This document shows, one piece after another, positions 1-7,470 of a stretch of DNA of 64,000 nucleotides. Location of the stretch: contig NZ_VIKU02000002.1 of NCBI RefSeq assembly GCF_009371985.2, forward strand, positions 434,001-498,000, given 5' to 3'. Made by a program: the position numbers and the translations under genes. The notes under the pieces are model-generated. The model saw nothing but the letters and a program-made list of their open reading frames with translations. It searched no databases and was not told the origin of the DNA. This DNA comes from Pelagihabitans pacificus. GTDB lineage: Bacteria; Bacteroidota; Bacteroidia; Flavobacteriales; Flavobacteriaceae. Numbering within the stretch: the stretch's first letter is position 1; every line of letters begins with the position of its first letter.

Positions 1-2462
1 ATGGTCGAAGCTGCCAATTCCTTACTCTTGCTTTTATTCTCTATTTCCAGTCGCTCGTTCTTGATTCTTATAATTTCCTTCTCGTTTTGAACTTGGGTCA
101 ACTCCAACTCACGTTTGTTTTTTTCTATAAGTTTTTGACGTTGCTTCCTATAATACCGTTTGTAGGCGAAATGCATAAAGAATGAAAGCAGTACCATTCC
201 CAATACATAAAGAGCGATCATCACGTTGGAGATGTACCAAGGTTTTGCTATCACAAAGGAATACGATGCCGTATTGTTCGACATTGTATTCCCAATTTTT
301 GCCCTAAGGTCGAAGGTATATGCACCAAAAGGGAGGTTCTCATAAAACACCTCGGCCTTTTCCGACCAATTGCTCCATTCGTCGTACATTCCCTTTAGCC
401 GAAATTGGTATTGTGTACTTAAATACTTGTTGTAGACCGGAGCGTAGAAGGAAAAGTTGAAATTGTTTTCATTGCTTGCAAAACTACCTTCCGTCATTTG
501 GTCGAGTAGCGTTTCGTCGGTATTATCGCTGTTGGTAATACTGCCTATATAAACACCAAAATCCTTAGGTTTTATTTCATTGATATTGAATGTTAAATAC
601 CCAGAGGTTTTTCCTACCAAATAGGTGCCGTCCTCATTTAGCTTAATAATACTTTCATAGCCTAGGATGTCGCCCCTCATTTCTTTTGTCAAGGGCACAT
701 TTTTTATTTTCAAGGAATTGGTCAAGCCTATGGGTTCGAAAAAACTGATGTTCGATTTGTTGAAAATCCATAATTTTTTGTCCTCCTCATGGACTACTAG
801 CTTCCCGGATTCATATTCTTCCTCTGTATACGCCCTACTTAAAAGACTGTCTGTCACAAACCTTTGGTCGTCCTCGTCGTAATGGAGAATACCGTTTTTA
901 TAGGCATATAATAAGTTGCCATTGTATTTCACCAGTCCCGAATTGGAACCTTTTAGAAGCGTATCCTTCACCATATGTTTTACTCCGAAAAAGGAATCAT
1001 CCACCTCTATTTTAAACACCCCGTTATACTCATGGTTTACGAAGATTTGATTGCCCAACGTTTCAAAATACCTAGATGAATTGTTAAAACCACTGATCTT
1101 ATTTCGTAGCCTCCACGAATCACCCGATCTTACCAGTACATACAACCCATCATAGTTGCCCTGAAGTAACAGACCCGGCCTATTGGGCAGCTTACCCATA
1201 TTCCATGCCCCTTGAATACTTACTATTTTGGTGGCTTGGTCACCCTTAATTTCAAAAGTTCCGGAATTATGGCCACACAACAGTTTTCCATCAATTTCTT
1301 TCAAAAACCATACCTGTTCCTGGGTACCGTTGATAAACCTAAAACCATTGTTACCATTCAGTGGCTTATAAAATAATCCCTGATTTGTTCCGAGGTATAA
1401 ATTACCGTCGTACACCGCAGATGCATAAACACTGCCTAAAACTCCTTTGGTATCGTTGAACACCCGGTAGGGTGCTTTTAAATTCACATAACTGACGCCA
1501 TGATCAAGTCCCGTCCATATATTGCTATCAATATCCTCAAAAAGCGACAAAACCGTATTGTTGGACAAGCCAGTATCCTGATTGATCCGATACAATAATT
1601 CTCCGCGGTCACTTAAATAGAGTAAACCGTCGGATACAGACCCCAAAACAAAACTTTTATCCCTTAACTGGATTCCCGCATACAAACTAAGATTTGATAA
1701 AAAGGTATTTGGAAAGGCGTTCGACGGTACCAGCACATCATTTTCCAAGGTATAGAAACCATTATTTTTTGTGAGAATCAAGAGATCCTTCCCACTACCA
1801 AAAATGTTTATGACCTCATCATTTCTAACGATGTCATCCTCAAAAAGCAAAAAATCGCTGCCTGATTCCAGTTTAAATATCCCCTCTCCCATCCTTTGAA
1901 AATAGATGTTTTGATCGATTTCGAACATTTTCGTGATGGTACTTTCGGAATCAATCGTTTTCACCATTCCGTTGTTTACATTCCATATGTATATCCGTCT
2001 TAAAGATTGAAAAACAACGTAATCATCAACATTAATAATGTTCCAAAACTCCTCGTCTTCGATGAGTTCCACGGACATTTGTTTGGATATGGAAGTGTAG
2101 GACAAAGTGCCCAGATTATTCTTTTGCCAGTAACCGAATTCCATAAAACAACCGGTATAAATACGGTCATCGACCACCTTTACGGAGCGCATAATCGTTT
2201 CATTGGGAGAAGGATATAACTGCCAGCTTGCTCCATTGAACTCCATGAGCCCCTTGCTATTGGCAACGTAAACCAGTCTTTTGGGGGACTGTGAAATAGC
2301 CCAGTTCTGATTTTCACCATGATAGTCTTTGGGGTAAAAATTTTGAATGGGCGGAAGCTCCTGGGATAGTAGTCCAATGGTTGTGAGGAGGAAAAAGAGG
2401 GAAACGTATTTCAAATTCGAGTTTTTCAATATTCTAAGTGGTAATATAGAAACTTTATTCAT
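1..2462 (-). CDS. Beta-propeller/Y_Y_Y membrane sensor, probably with C-terminal LuxR-type HTH (3' end outside window)
   Basis: About 820 codons are present; the gene runs off the window. I start it at an ATG at 2462, which overlaps the stop of the upstream channel gene by 8 nt (ATGAATAA), implying translational coupling. The N-terminus has a basic stretch and a hydrophobic segment ending near SQELPP, a signal peptide. The body is a two-component-regulator-type beta-propeller with short repeated blades, then a Y_Y_Y-type beta-sandwich (about residues 650-735), one membrane span (about 742-762), and a charged coiled coil (about 768-815) ending KELAASTM. In this Bacteroidota family that KELA-ST stretch usually leads into a LuxR-type DNA-binding domain, which would lie outside the window. 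It would sense a periplasmic ligand and act on DNA from the membrane. Domain identity is clear; the HTH is inferred. Confidence 0.82.
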
Positions 2463-3549
2463 CCAACCCATATTTCTTTAGCGATTCATTCCACGATACC
2501 GATTGAATGCGGGTAATAAGCTGTTTGTTCACCTCATTGAACAAGGGCTGGGATTTCGGCATAATGAAGCTCCTATACTGTTTTTGAAAAGTCAGTGGAA
2601 GTAGCCTGATGTCATTTCCCATGTCATTGGTTTTGATGAGGTACTTCGTCGTGGTCTTATCGGAAACCAAAATCTCAATTTCTTTTCTCGCCAAGGCCCT
2701 AAGGGCCTGTAACGGGGTTCTATACACCTGTGACGCTTGCAAATCGTGTTGATGCATAAAGAGTTCGGCATCAGAGGCTCCCACAACACCCATTTTTTTG
2801 GCGCCCTGTAGGTCTTCCAGTCCACTGATATCCGCTTCGAGCGTATTGACCGTTAACGTTGAAGCAATGGTGGCGGTAAATCCGGAAATGATGATAATTG
2901 CGGTAAACATCCAGATGATGGCTATGGTCTTTCCCAAGTGTGTCTTTGGCGCCTTATCACCATAACCGACCGTGGTCATGGTCACCGCGGCCCACCAAAG
3001 GCCATCGAAGAGACCCCTGATACCAGGCCTGAACTGGTATTTGTTCGTCTTTCGTTCGGCAAACCATAGGATAGTTCCAAAAGTCAATAAAATCACTAGC
3101 AAGAGTAGTACTATGTTTAAAAAATCACGGGAGAAAAAGTTATTGACAAAAATTTGAAATTGACCTTGGCTGCTGGTCGTAGTCGCGACGCCCACACTCG
3201 AAATATAGAAGGGCTGACTTACCTGAAACCGCTCTATCCGACTGGGGCTATTGCTCAACGGATTGATGGAAATATCGAGCTCGTCATAGTCGAGGGAACG
3301 GATGATACCCACCGCATCACTATATTCCACATATTCATAGGCGATATTCATCTCGGTTGCCATATGCTCCCAAAGATCAATCGAAACCCCGGCATAGCCC
3401 TGTGACTCCTTTACAACAAATGGTGGATCCTCGTAGATACCCACCAACAGGGTATCCCGAAAGGCATTGGCATTTCCTATGAGACCCATGGAAAGAACCG
3501 AAATAAATAATACTGTTGAAGAGAGTTTGTCCATATTATTTGAGCTCAT
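2455..3549 (-). CDS. Ionotropic glutamate receptor-type K+ channel (GluR0-like)
   Basis: 364 aa with the architecture of prokaryotic glutamate-gated channels. A signal peptide (about 1-29) precedes the first lobe of a family-3 solute-binding domain (about 33-125). A membrane span (about 144-163), a pore loop with the K+ selectivity filter TTVGYGD (192-198) and a second span (about 205-230) follow, then the second binding lobe to the C-terminus. [14 protein letters not shown] (101-114) matches the ligand-binding segment of this fold; R104 is the expected carboxylate-binding arginine. By analogy with Synechocystis GluR0 it should be a tetrameric inner-membrane K+ channel opened by an amino-acid-like ligand. 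The start at 3549 overlaps the upstream sensor by 14 nt; a second ATG at 3534 would begin just after that stop and is equally plausible. It lies between two sensor genes. Confidence 0.9.
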
Positions 3550-6433
3550 CGTTAGCGTTTACCGACAAAAACCGGACGAGAATTCCCAACAAGGCACTGA
3601 TTTGCTGTGAAAACGCATTTTTTTCCTTGGAATAAATGCAAAAAACCGCCGTGCCGCCATTCTTTTGATCGAAGGGTACATATATTCGTGATACATATCC
3701 GATACTATCTTGTTGGCTTACGTAGTCCCCAACTTCTTTGGTAAAATCATGGATTAAAAGGGGTTTTTCGGTAACCATAACATAACTTGCCAAGTTGTTC
3801 CTTTCATTAAATGCCTCCTCCCGTTTGATCATTTCATGATTCCCCCGAAGGTACCCCTTGAATCTGATTACCTCCCCTTGTTTGTAGGCAAGCTCAAAAA
3901 CATCGATGCCCGTTGGAAGCTCTACCAATTTGCTGAGAATGGGTAGTACGGTCTTCCAGCTAGAATCCTCGGGAATTTGTTTGATCAACCTATGGAGTAG
4001 GTAAATATTGACTCCCGTACTCTTCAGTTCGTTTTTTTTCTGCTTGAGGGTACTACTTTGCTCGACCAATTCGGCCTCTTTTTCTGCCAGTTCCTTTTGT
4101 TTATGGTATAGCGAAGCTTGTAAGCTCCCAACCCGTTTCAGCAGCCAGCGCCTTACGAAGAACCAAAAGAAAAAGAATCCAATGGTCACCAGTAGGAAAA
4201 CGCCCCACCAGGTGCGGTACCATCTTTGCGATACATCCAACTCTACTACCACGGGTGCGCTCCATCTAAACCCCCCGGTTTTTTGACCCTGAACCAATAT
4301 CCGATAGTTTCCGCCCTTCAGTTCCTCTAAGACAAGCTCAGGGGTCGGGACATCGGACCAAGCGACATCGTCTATGTCTTCCCGGGGTAAACCACTCTCG
4401 AATATTTTATATCGATAGTTGACATCCTCGCTTGGGAATGTCAGCGTTGCCATGGTAATCCGGACTTTTTGGGATTCCTTCAGTTGGATGGTATTTTGCC
4501 CTTCAATCTCGCTATTATCTACCCTAACCTCTTTAATAATAGGTGTCTTTGTTTGATACGGCCAAGGGTTGGTCCGTGAGGAATACACCACCCCTTCCGG
4601 CGTACCGACCCAGAGCTGTGAGTCGTTATAAAGAACCATACAACGGTAAGAGGATATCTTTGAGGGGGTTCCGCTATCCTCGTCAAAAATCACGTAGTTC
4701 CCTTCCCCATCCAAATGTATAAGCCCGTTGGTATCGGTAGCCAACCAAAGCGCATTATCGGGCATGGCGGTTATTGATCGAACCTCATTGTCGGTATACT
4801 GCCCGAGGCGGACCTTCCTAATGGTCTCGGTATCGTATTTAAGAAGTCCGTCGGTAGTCGCTAGCCAAACGATACCCAAACGGTCCACGGCCATATCATG
4901 AACTTCAAAATTACCGCTGACCTTAAATGGAAACGGCAAACTCTTGTTTTGAAATCGGTCGGATAAAGGATCGTATTTATATAAGTAGGATGATACACCG
5001 ATGCCAGCGGCGTACAATTCGTTTTTACCACCTTCTCGAATGACCAATATACGATTGTCAAAGCCTTTCTCCTTTCCGTATTCAATAACATCCCCTTTCG
5101 GATTGATCTTTGCGGTACCTACGATGGGTTGATTGGAGGCCGCCTGACAGAACCACAGATTTCCGCTGTGGTCTGCCGAGATAAAGAAGATACCACTACC
5201 CCTTGCGCTAAGATCATAGGTTCTTGCCAATTGACGGCCGCGATATTGAAATATCATTCCTTCCGCCGAACCATACCATATGTTATCGTTCAACGAGCCG
5301 ATACCGACGATGCCATTGAGATTATCCTCTTTTTCAAACCCTTTGGATATGCCTTGGTCGCGTATCCGCGATACATCGCCTTGAGAAATTAGGATGGGGC
5401 CCTCCGGGTTGGAGTTCATCGCTCGAATATTGTCATGTCCCAAACCCGAAACACTTTGAAAAAAGCTAGACCACATTAAGGTAAGCCCTTTGTCGGAACA
5501 TACCCAGATGACCTCATTCGATGCATTTTCATCTTTGGTAAAGTGTAACCGATTGATGGTGCCAAAGGAGAGTTCCTCTACCCTGTGTGGATCATTGGCA
5601 CCAAATACCTTGGATAACTTGGCGTTGTTTCCATCGTTTTGAAAGGTGTAGATGGCCGACTCCGTATTTAGGAACATACTGCCCTTATGGTTTACCGCGA
5701 TGTGCCGGAATTCCTTATCCACGGCAAAGATTTGCCTGTTAACAACATTCCGACTACGGGTTACCGTAAATTTTTCAAGCCGATCTCCTACTAACCAAAT
5801 AACATCATCCGCTACCAAAAAGTGATGGCTCCGACCGACATTTTTAAAGAGCGCAAATTTTTGGGAAGTATCGTCTAGGTAGAAAAGACCTTGCCCCGGC
5901 ACCAATACCCAAATGGTCCCGAATGTATCCTCCCCGAAGAACATTTTTGGGGTTTTTACGCGGGATACCGAATCAAACAGCTTCCCTAAATCTTCTTCTT
6001 GGGAAAACATAAGAATGGATCCGTTCATTTGACCTGTCCACAACCTGTTTTGACTATCCTTAAAAAGTCCAGTAGGGTAATGAAAGTCCGTACTTGTCTT
6101 AAATGACGCTATCCGGGGTTGGTCATTGGCGTAGAAAATCCTATGTATCCCGGTATCGTTCGAGAATAGCAGGTTGTTTTCATCCCAGGAAACAAAGGTT
6201 CGTATGGTCTTGCTGCGCAAGGTGGTATTAAAATCCTCAAAAGTATTGCCATCAAATCGAAAGAGCCCTTGATCGGTCGCCAACCAGGTATAGCCCTTGA
6301 AGTCCCGTATTACCTGATTGACATTTTTAAAAGGAACTTCCTCCCCGTGATAATAAGCATACTTGAACTTCTGCCCGTAGGACCACCCGGCCATAAACAG
6401 GAATACATATAGGAAGAATATTTTGAATCGCAT
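3536..6433 (-). CDS. Beta-propeller/Y_Y_Y membrane sensor with C-terminal coiled coil and GAF-like domain
   Basis: 965 aa, first gene of the minus-strand unit. A signal peptide (about 1-20, ending WSYGQ) is followed by a long reg_prop-type beta-propeller with repeated blade motifs such as [14 protein letters not shown] and [14 protein letters not shown], a Y_Y_Y-like beta-sandwich (about 645-735), one membrane span (about 743-760), a Glu/Lys/Gln-rich coiled coil (about 768-808), and about 150 residues that look like a GAF fold (about 810-955). No histidine-kinase, HTH or cyclase motif is visible, so the output is not obvious; it may pass a signal by protein contact. The stop overlaps the next gene, which codes for an ion channel. 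Propeller and membrane topology are clear; the GAF assignment rests on pattern only. Confidence 0.82.
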
Positions 6434-6613: not shown

Positions 6614-6808
6614 CTACCCCCAAACATTCAGGGGCCAAAGACCGATGGGTTTGGATTCATATTGAAAGTCGGCCAAAGTGCAACGATTTATGCACAGTTC
6701 CGCCCGCTGTTTGTTGACGGTAATCCGCACGTAAATATCCAATCTTTCGGGATTGTTCCGTTTTTTCCTTGTGAAGAAAATCACTCCTAAAATGCTGTCC
6801 GTACACAT
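6614..6808 (-). pseudogene. Truncated tyrosine recombinase (N-terminal arm-binding domain only)
   Basis: 64 codons. The segment VIFFTRKKRN..ERLDIYVRITVNKQRAELCINR resembles the first 40 or so residues of Bacteroidota phage-type integrases, whose SAM-like arm-binding domain begins with a strand-turn-strand of this kind. Full-length members are about 400 aa with a catalytic R-H-R-Y domain; here the frame stops after 64 codons and no catalytic part follows. It sits about 370 bp from a tRNA-Pro gene whose 3' end is repeated nearby, the usual setting for an integrated element. I read it as the relic of an element that has otherwise been lost. The fragment is short, so family assignment is moderate. 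Confidence 0.55.
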
Positions 6809-6989: not shown

Positions 6990-7011
6990 GATACCCACTG
7001 AAAAGTGGTTC

Positions 7012-7029
7012 GTCGGGATGACAGGATTT
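7012..7029. repeat. 18-bp direct repeat of the tRNA-Pro 3' end (att-like)
   Basis: The 18 bases at 7012-7029 (GTCGGGATGACAGGATTT) are identical to 7179-7196, which cover the last 16 bases of the tRNA-Pro gene plus two flanking bases. Integrating elements that use tRNA genes leave exactly such a copy at the far end. With the recombinase fragment at 6614-6808 it looks like an attL/attR pair brought close by deletion. The alternative is a degenerate second tRNA 3' half. Confidence 0.5.
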
Positions 7030-7085
7030 ACAGAATCCTCGGCAGCCCTTTGCTGCAAATGGAAAAGCGAAGCCGTCGCTCCCGC

Positions 7086-7145
7086 TTTTTTTGTTCCCGG
7101 CCCCGTGCCTAAACTTTGTTTTGGACGATTCCGGGAACAAAAAAA
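7086..7145. repeat. 15-bp inverted repeat (TTTTTTTGTTCCCGG / CCGGGAACAAAAAAA)
   Basis: 7086-7100 is the exact reverse complement of 7131-7145, with 30 bases between. The arms are GC-rich inside and T/A-rich outside. It overlaps the A-run of the tRNA terminator on one side and another hairpin (7063-7069 with 7083-7089) on the other, so the segment can fold in several exclusive ways. Confidence 0.6.
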
Positions 7146-7171
7146 GTGATTTGCCATGGCAAATCACTTTT
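7139..7171 (-). terminator. Rho-independent terminator of tRNA-Pro
   Basis: A perfect 30-bp palindrome (7142-7171, centred on CCATGG) begins 10 bases beyond the 3' end of the minus-strand tRNA. Read on that strand, the stem GTGATTTGCCA / TGGCAAATCAC is followed by seven T residues (7145-7139). Position and shape fit a terminator for the tRNA transcript. Confidence 0.75.
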
Positions 7172-7180
7172 CCGCTTGGT

Positions 7181-7253
7181 CGGGATGACAGGATTTGAAC
7201 CTGCGACCACTCGGCCCCCAGCCGAGTGCGCTACCGGACTGCGCCACATCCCG
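7181..7253 (-). tRNA. tRNA-Pro (GGG anticodon)
   Basis: The reverse strand folds into a full cloverleaf of 73 nt: acceptor CGGGATG / CATCCCG, D-arm GCGC..GCGC, anticodon stem CTCGG / CCGAG with loop CTGGGGG (anticodon GGG, preceded by T33), variable loop TGGTC, and T-arm GCAGG-TTCAAAT-CCTGT. CCA is not encoded. A terminator follows at 7139-7171. Its 3' end is copied at 7012-7029 and its first bases are contained in the 108-bp tandem repeat on the other side. Confidence 0.95.
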
Positions 7254-7470
7254 AAAGTTTATTAAAGGATTCTAAAACTCATAAATCCCTATGGTTTTTG
7301 ACAGACCCAGAACGTACTGTGGTGCAGTTTATCCTGAGCGAAGCCGAAGGGCCACATCCCGAAAGTTTATTAAAGGATTCTAAAACTCATAAATCCCTAT
7401 GGTTTTTGACCGACCCAGAACGTACTGTGGTGCAGTTTATCCTGAGCGAAGCCGAAGGGCCATATCCCGA
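7243..7470. repeat. 108-bp tandem repeat (two full copies and a partial third) containing a REP-like motif
   Basis: The unit GCCACATCCCG... begins at 7243, again at 7351, and in changed form (GCCATATCCCG) at 7459, an exact period of 108 bp. The two full copies differ by one base (GACAGACC versus GACCGACC). Each unit starts with 11 bases of the tRNA-Pro 5' end and ends with TTTATCCTGAGCGAAGCC followed by GAAGG, a motif familiar as a dispersed REP-like sequence in environmental Bacteroidota that is often mis-translated as ILSEAEG. An open frame crosses the array only because 108 is a multiple of three. Confidence 0.85.

Follow-up and report, generated by a model that had tools for sequence, protein, structure and literature searches.

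Two-gene pairing of a propeller/GAF sensor with a GluR0-type potassium channel in Pelagihabitans pacificus and its relatives

Gene layout at the locus

The window (the whole stretch of 64,000 nucleotides that was analysed, positions 434001-498000 of contig NZ_VIKU02000002.1) belongs to the 4.56 Mb genome of Pelagihabitans pacificus. At its left end three open reading frames (ORFs) lie on the minus strand, at 3536-6433 (gene A), 2455-3549 (gene B) and 3-2471 (gene C, which leaves the window). A encodes a propeller/GAF sensor and B a K+ channel of the prokaryotic glutamate-receptor (GluR0) type, and these two make up the pair treated here. A preliminary description of this DNA had joined all three genes into one unit through overlaps of 14 and 8 nt. 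The features of the locus are listed below, with models from AlphaFold2 and their predicted local distance difference test scores (pLDDT); L and G numbers are our handles for loci and genomes.

3536..6433, minus strand: gene A, sensor with propellers, immunoglobulin (Ig)-like domain, transmembrane helix, coiled coil and GAF domain, 965 aa (ORF; Pfam Reg_prop and GAF_2; model pLDDT 84.9; best fold match the BT4663 periplasmic domain)
4574..6376, minus strand: A residues ~20-620, double beta-propeller, predicted periplasmic, limits approximate (model secondary structure; Foldseek 4a2m, E 1.2e-31; profile 3v9f, E 3.4e-36)
4229..4546, minus strand: A residues ~630-735, Ig-like (Y_Y_Y-type) domain (model strands; Pfam Y_Y_Y in 4/45 members, the window copy being without it)
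3980..4222, minus strand: A residues ~738-818, transmembrane helix and coiled coil (model helix 742-818, low confidence at 793-806; hydrophobic stretch)
3554..3961, minus strand: A residues ~825-960, GAF domain, predicted cytosolic, with no output domain after it (GAF_2 in 41/45; PDE6C GafA profile, E 7.2e-7)
3536..3549, minus strand: A/B junction, a 14-nt overlap given the first ATG of B (ORF coordinates; gaps in relatives)
2455..3549, minus strand: gene B, GluR0-type ligand-binding K+ channel, 364 aa (Pfam; model pLDDT 84.3; Foldseek, AMPA-receptor ligand-binding and transmembrane domains, best E 2.2e-19)
2836..3129, minus strand: B pore M1-P-M2, residues ~141-238 (model; best conserved region of B, mean 0.82-0.83)
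2956..2976, minus strand: B selectivity filter TTVGYGD, residues 192-198 (present in 47/47 A-paired channels)
3253..3255, minus strand: codon of B residue 99 (Ser), at the GluA2 T480 position (alignments)
3..2414, continuing beyond the window, minus strand: gene C, LuxR-type propeller regulator, outside the pair (likely TTG start at 2414)

A and B overlap by 14 nt if B begins at its first ATG, and are 1 nt apart if it begins at the second. The corresponding junction in relatives runs from about -14 to +10 nt depending on the start chosen and is often -4 (ATGA), leaving aside L114, in which A is split. The 8-nt overlap between B and C is obtained only from the second ATG of C, the first giving 17 nt. 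Bacteroidota promoters differ from the sigma-70 type, and a scan of the locus for sigma-70-type promoters was uninformative (7 sites against 9.1 expected by shuffling).

The sensor and the channel form a conserved pair

Homologues of B were searched for in 397 genomes of the family, 61 of which gave a match at E<=1e-30. At 44% identity or above B was found at 19 places in 16 genomes (the copy in G327 lying in two pieces in different frames), and at all 19 A lies directly upstream on the same strand. At the next-best places, L082 (40%) and L083 (38%), A was not found within 20 kb around each. A search of the same genomes with A, scoring at most two candidates per genome, returned 19 places at E<=1e-60 in 16/397 genomes, each adjoining, by coordinates, one of the B genes of at least 44% identity. 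Three genomes (G126, G149 and G325) hold two separate pairs each, every A with its own B.

B was also used to scan 84,980 species genomes from GTDB, of which the best 80 loci, out of a larger number, were analysed. The B profile scored at least 513 bits in 46 of these and at most 440 bits in 34, with none between; since 18 paired channels had gone into the profile, pairing and score gap are not independent. A was found upstream in 45 of the 45 high-scoring loci with upstream sequence, split in L114 and cut by the contig end in some, and it was absent among the three ORFs on either side of all 34 lower-scoring channels, one of which (L134) has almost no upstream sequence. Loci found through B cannot reveal an A that lacks B, and the family and GTDB sets overlap in genomes, so that their counts are not additive.

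The 46 channels paired with A form a single clade in a tree of 81 (support 100/97, one label change), the other 35 lying outside it, and identity within the clade falls to 44%. Among the best 80 loci the pair is spread over the Flavobacteriaceae and a group of Saprospiraceae and Lewinellaceae, with examples in Robiginitalea myxolifaciens DSM 21019, Winogradskyella vincentii and Flagellimonas allohymeniacidonis. L130 and L131, the unpaired channels nearest to the clade, lack A and are flanked by different genes. Flanking genes vary from one A-B locus to the next, and no third gene is kept clade-wide. These comparisons strongly support A and B as a conserved pair of two genes, not three. Of the link between channel and sensors proposed previously, the part that concerns A therefore holds and the part that concerns C does not. 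That proposal was to fall if the channel turned up in related genomes without either sensor; such channels do occur in the wider family, including a second one in the window's own genome, but in the orthologous clade A is present wherever upstream sequence is available.

Two further arrangements were noted around these channels. Directly after the A-B pair of a Croceivirga metagenome-assembled genome (L098, 9137-13108) lies a gene for a 1323-aa propeller hybrid sensor kinase with an AraC-type helix-turn-helix (HTH). Unpaired channels in L140, L142 and other Salegentibacter/Christiangramia loci are preceded by an oxidoreductase (Gfo/Idh type in L140) and a protein of ~150 aa, which has no Pfam match in L140, overlaps by 4 nt in three loci and is perhaps another channel partner.

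Gene A encodes a sensor without a recognisable output domain

The preliminary description had read A as a beta-propeller/Y_Y_Y/GAF protein. Pfam matched Reg_prop and GAF_2 in the window copy, GAF_2 with a score under its cut-off there and at E<=0.01 in 41/45 members of the A family. Y_Y_Y was not reached by Pfam in the window copy and was reported for 4/45 members; the predicted structure has Ig-like strands at the Y_Y_Y-type site. The model, built from 45 sequences (predicted template modelling score 0.68), is ordered as an N-terminal hydrophobic helix, likely a signal peptide, followed by two beta-propellers, the Ig-like domain, a long helix comprising membrane span and coiled coil, and a GAF-like fold. 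Its closest fold in the PDB is the periplasmic domain of BT4663, a hybrid system that senses heparin (E 1.2e-31), with BT4673 and BT3049 next, and the best solved relative of the GAF profile is the GafA domain of cone phosphodiesterase 6C (E 7.2e-7). The C-terminus is accordingly assigned to the GAF fold on both the family matches and the PDE6C profile.

By fold and profile A has the double propeller and Y_Y_Y-type periplasmic head of the hybrid two-component systems (HTCS), but not their output, which is a histidine kinase, receiver or HTH: kinase, receiver, cyclase and HTH domains were all missing from the 17 Pfam families matched at E<=0.01 in 45 A proteins. A phylum-wide scan with the A profile, which scored the candidate sequences themselves, at most two per genome, gave 25 places in 20/345 genomes. 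Apart from the window's own, the GAF end was unmatched in all of them (alignments stop at or before 848 of 973), so these were rejected as true A and look like other propeller sensors.

Gene B encodes a GluR0-type channel

B had been described as a ligand-gated channel of the glutamate-receptor type with a TTVGYGD filter, and its domains and filter are confirmed. Pfam places SBP_bac_3 at residues 35-361, surrounding Lig_chan at 149-252, together with Ion_trans_2, and the model, built from 47 sequences, aligns over nearly its whole length with AMPA-receptor chains in Foldseek. The best solved match in a single-sequence search was 2pyy (E 2.3e-13), a bacterial ionotropic glutamate receptor homologue presumably from Nostoc. 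The two-lobed ligand domain split by two transmembrane helices and a pore loop is that of GluR0. The filter, of the TVGYG type expected for K+, is invariant in the 47 paired channels, although the patterns used for the GTDB scan select for part of it. From sequence and model B is a GluR0-type K+ channel; the K+ current of that class is characteristically gated by amino acids, as that of B may be. The second channel of the window's own genome, not paired with A, is 37% identical to B, and the best match of B in nine genomes of the same genus is 36% identical.

The topology used below, with the ligand domain outside and the M1-P loop inside, was assumed from GluR0. The authors of a 2026 study of Synechocystis GluR0 place both ends of that protein outside, their cytoplasmic fusions falling short of significance (PMC13099474).

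The amine-binding position drifts in paired channels

The amino acid is bound by an S1 arginine and an S2 aspartate, the latter named for the amine by Ger et al. 2010 (PMC2950845). In GluA2 the amine is also contacted by T480, according to a figure legend of PMC5766834, and a threonine at this position is not among the residues named as defining GluR0 types in the portion of Ger et al. consulted. Profile alignment puts GluA2 P478, T480 and R485 at residues 97, 99 and 104 of B; D297 of B aligns with the lobe-2 aspartate of 2pyy. We take D297 to occupy the position of GluA2 E705. The window's B thus has the arginine and aspartate of the GluR0 amino-acid site (R104, D297) but a serine, not threonine, at the T480 position.

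Conservation of these residues differs between the two sets of channels. In the 47 paired channels P97 and R104 are found in 47 each and D297 in 43, and position 99 takes twelve residue types overall, threonine in 3/47 and serine in 4/47. In 35 unpaired channels the proline is kept in 35, the arginine in 34 and the aspartate in 35, with threonine at 99 in 33; in a second unpaired set of 22, which shares four rows with the first (the own-genome paralogue, L050, L052 and L053), threonine stands at 99 in 21 and the arginine and aspartate in 22 each. Across B positions 30-360 with enough letters in both groups, residue 99 ranks first for loss of constraint in paired relative to unpaired channels, and positions 296, 300, 260 and 101, near the ligand site in sequence, are in the top 15. 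In the window's copy the change is mild, with serine at both 99 and 101. The classic amine site drifts across the paired clade, as would be expected if a partner gated the channel or the ligand had changed, but neither is thereby proved.

Residues L161, Q172 and P175 show the opposite pattern, being present in 47, 47 and 45 of the 47 paired channels but in 2, 4 and 3 of the 35 unpaired and 1, 4 and 3 of the 22. In the model they lie at the predicted cytosolic face of B, where the coil and GAF domain of A would be. Of six residues that are constant when A is present and seldom seen in channels lacking it, five fall on this face (p 0.0013), the cytosolic ranges having been chosen by us from the model and the GluR0 topology; R174 and A200 fail in the second unpaired set, and this enrichment was set aside.

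An unpaired channel beside the paired clade (L131, 5546-6637) has tyrosine at the otherwise constant S1 arginine position and the filter TMATVGYGD.

Gene C belongs to a neighbouring beta-1,3-glucan locus

C is complete in the genome, where it encodes 948 aa (L004, 13625-16471). It had been described as a propeller protein probably ending in a LuxR-type HTH, which agrees with our results, although the scores at its C-terminus are marginally below the Pfam cut-offs (GerE 22.1 bits, cut-off 23.5; Sigma70_r4_2 23.9 bits, cut-off 25.7). It is followed by this locus:

L004 193-13354 (outside the window): beta-1,3-glucan locus after C, with GH2-type, GH16 and PKD-type genes, a sugar transporter and GH149 (1819.8 bits, cut-off 1150)

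In all seven orthologous loci C is followed, as in the window's genome, by a GH2-type protein, a lipoprotein-like protein, GH16 and a PKD-type protein, and in six by a GH149 beta-1,3-glucan phosphorylase further on, the contig of the seventh ending earlier. C heads its beta-glucan operon in 7/7 of these, with neither A nor B beside it in the ~1.4 kb before C that was viewed. Homologues of C at E<=1e-150 occur in 160/299 family genomes. Looking for the three-gene order in relatives, as had been suggested, showed that C follows B in the window only, both among the window and 46 GTDB A-B loci (1/47, a few with little downstream sequence) and in the family, where C is beside B in 0/18 other A-B loci (1/19). 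In six of six other genomes of one draw holding both, the listed C lies apart from A-B.

The overlap of C with B had been a further reason for joining them. The two nearest orthologues of C (L189 and L190) start exactly at the position of TTG 2414 in the window's C, and the remaining orthologues are of similar length; in L189, L191 and L195 the longest frame of C likewise starts with TTG. A start at TTG 2414 leaves a 40-nt spacer between B and C and no overlap. Judged by the orthologue starts, the B/C overlap probably reflects a wrong start codon, and translational coupling across it was set aside; of the two overlaps described, only that of A and B stands, given the first ATG of B. Its place in relatives, apart from the pair and at the head of a separate beta-glucan operon where A and B are absent, makes C a neighbour of the pair and not a member, and A-B-C as a conserved unit is largely refuted. 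In the window's genome the pair has come to sit directly before the beta-glucan locus, where co-transcription is possible but is not a conserved design.

Flanking sequences and a GH16-type gene

Upstream of A, window positions 6614-6808 encode a 64-aa fragment with weak similarity to Arm-DNA-bind_5, the arm-binding domain of integrases (E 0.076, below cut-off), and the interval 7009-7196 includes 21 nt that repeat the 3' end of tRNA-Pro at 95%; the tRNA gene lies at 7177-7253. The two are a possible scar of an element integrated at the tRNA. Next to the tRNA-Pro gene, at 7243-7458, a 108-nt unit occurs twice in tandem, the copies being 99% alike. A tRNA or tmRNA was found in 7/45 A-B loci scanned, three being tRNA-Arg(tct).

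A gene associated with part of the paired clade is the following:

L079 5524-6378 and relatives: GH16-type gene

It is strongly conserved, begins like a lipoprotein, keeps the GEIDIFE motif intact and is complete or nearly so in 26/397 family genomes (a 27th copy, in G300, is a fragment). All ten genomes with the more distant A-B forms contain it, against 16/387 others (Fisher 2e-13), or 16/381 without A-B. It adjoins the pair in six of the ten, in two gene orders (before the pair in four, after it in two), and in 6/46 GTDB loci, which overlap with those six. Among 19 GH16 loci examined (the ten A-B genomes and nine of the other 16), A-B adjoins in six and no other neighbour occurs in more than four. 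This association counts in favour of an A-B device that is perhaps glycan-linked.

Interpretation of the A-B pair

Propeller/Ig-like heads of this type sense glycans in Bacteroidota, and such sensors normally carry a kinase or HTH. The position of A right before B, and the lack of any other obvious output in A, suggest that A works the channel. We regard it as somewhat probable that A serves a receptor-operated K+ channel as its sensory subunit, binding B and gating or modulating it. A would be a single-pass membrane sensor with double propeller and Ig-like domain outside and coiled coil and GAF domain inside; B would be its output, its K+ pore gated or modulated through binding of A. The outside ligand would be a glycan, perhaps a beta-glucan-type oligosaccharide, and the GAF domain would read a small molecule inside the cell, so that both ligands together would control K+ flux and membrane potential. 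A fuller version, which we offer only tentatively, is that of a glycan sensor without enzymatic or DNA-binding output, whose only output is a GluR-type pore converting polysaccharide and a GAF metabolite into a change of potential or turgor, the amino-acid site of the pore decaying as the sensor took over gating.

The comparisons establish the genes and their domains, with folds by prediction, the pairing, the single clade and the drift at the amine-binding position; contact of A with B, gating of B by A and the nature of the ligands are matters that we infer. Several observations weigh against A as the sensory subunit. R104 (47/47) and D297 (43/47) are kept, the window's B has serine at 99 like the GluR0-type chain 2pyy, and B may still bind an amino acid. 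Ranks 2-4 for loss of constraint are taken by positions 336, 79 and 67, at which we know of no ligand contact. Position 174 is arginine in 13/22 and position 200 alanine in 10/22 of the second unpaired set (R174 and A200 in B), and in a single clade such residues can be mere ancestry. The distances of A and B are correlated across 42 loci (r 0.977, Spearman 0.78), as expected from shared descent. As to a glycan ligand, the GH16-type gene was not found in any of the six genomes with only the window's type of pair and lies away from A-B in four of the ten with distant forms, and the Fisher test of its enrichment in the latter ignores phylogeny.

The same evidence allows other explanations. A and B could be co-expressed in one response without contact, the GAF domain signalling to something else and B reporting amino acid or osmotic state; operon pairing indicates shared function rather than contact, and the mostly kept R104 and D297 suit a channel of this kind, but with no recognisable output domain in A and no third gene conserved clade-wide we consider this rather unlikely. 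Slightly less probable again is that A serves as an auxiliary subunit in the assembly, localisation or stability of an ordinary amino-acid-gated GluR0-type channel. The pairing speaks for this equally, as do S99, R104 and D297 in the window's B; the twelve residue types at the amine-site position of paired channels speak against it, and a sensor-type head of 600 residues would exceed the needs of a chaperone.

A unit of A, B and C joining ligand, K+ flux and transcription now seems very improbable, as C adjoins the pair in the window only (47 loci; 19 family loci), is present in 160/299 family genomes and heads its own operon in 7/7 loci without A or B, even though it lies on the same strand within 40 nt of B, may be co-transcribed there, and has a counterpart of sorts in the 1323-aa hybrid kinase after B in L098. 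Equally hard to credit is that A acts on other propeller sensor kinases, as decoy or modulator, with B as a passenger, since for all the HTCS-like head of A, B is beside it at 19 family places and 45 GTDB loci (the latter found via B), and the window's genome has one Y_Y_Y protein above the Pfam cut-off besides C in a scan that misses A.

Comparison with known systems

The role of prokaryotic glutamate-receptor channels is largely open, as the Synechocystis GluR0 paper (PMC13099474) bears out, and a constant partner gene in a two-gene unit of named strains makes that question directly testable. No account of the A-B pair was found among the matches listed from the open-access literature searched, most subscription papers falling outside this scope. 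The parts belong to known families; the element absent from the matches listed is the constant association of a GluR0-type channel with a propeller/GAF sensor that has no output domain.

B shares with GluR0-type receptors (Synechocystis GluR0, 2pyy and the 'Group 1' proteins of PMC2950845) the S1-M1-P-M2-S2 order, the K+ filter, the S1 arginine and mostly the S2 aspartate, and differs from them in its clade-wide pairing with A, the unconserved threonine position for the amine and the near-fixed residues of the M1-P loop. A has the same double propeller and Ig-like periplasmic head as the Bacteroidota hybrid systems BT4663, BT3049 and BT4673, but ends in a coiled coil and GAF domain where kinase, receiver and HTH were not found. 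Gene C and the GH16 and GH149 genes after it resemble beta-1,3-glucan utilisation loci with a LuxR-type propeller regulator, and are a separate neighbour of A-B. SUR-Kir6 and the G-protein-gated Kir channels are receptor-coupled K+ channels of eukaryotes; the proteins are unrelated to A and B, but the principle proposed for the putative A-B coupling, in which a separate receptor controls a K+ pore, is the same. If A does gate B, the output of a glycan-type sensor would be ion flux rather than phosphate transfer or transcription.

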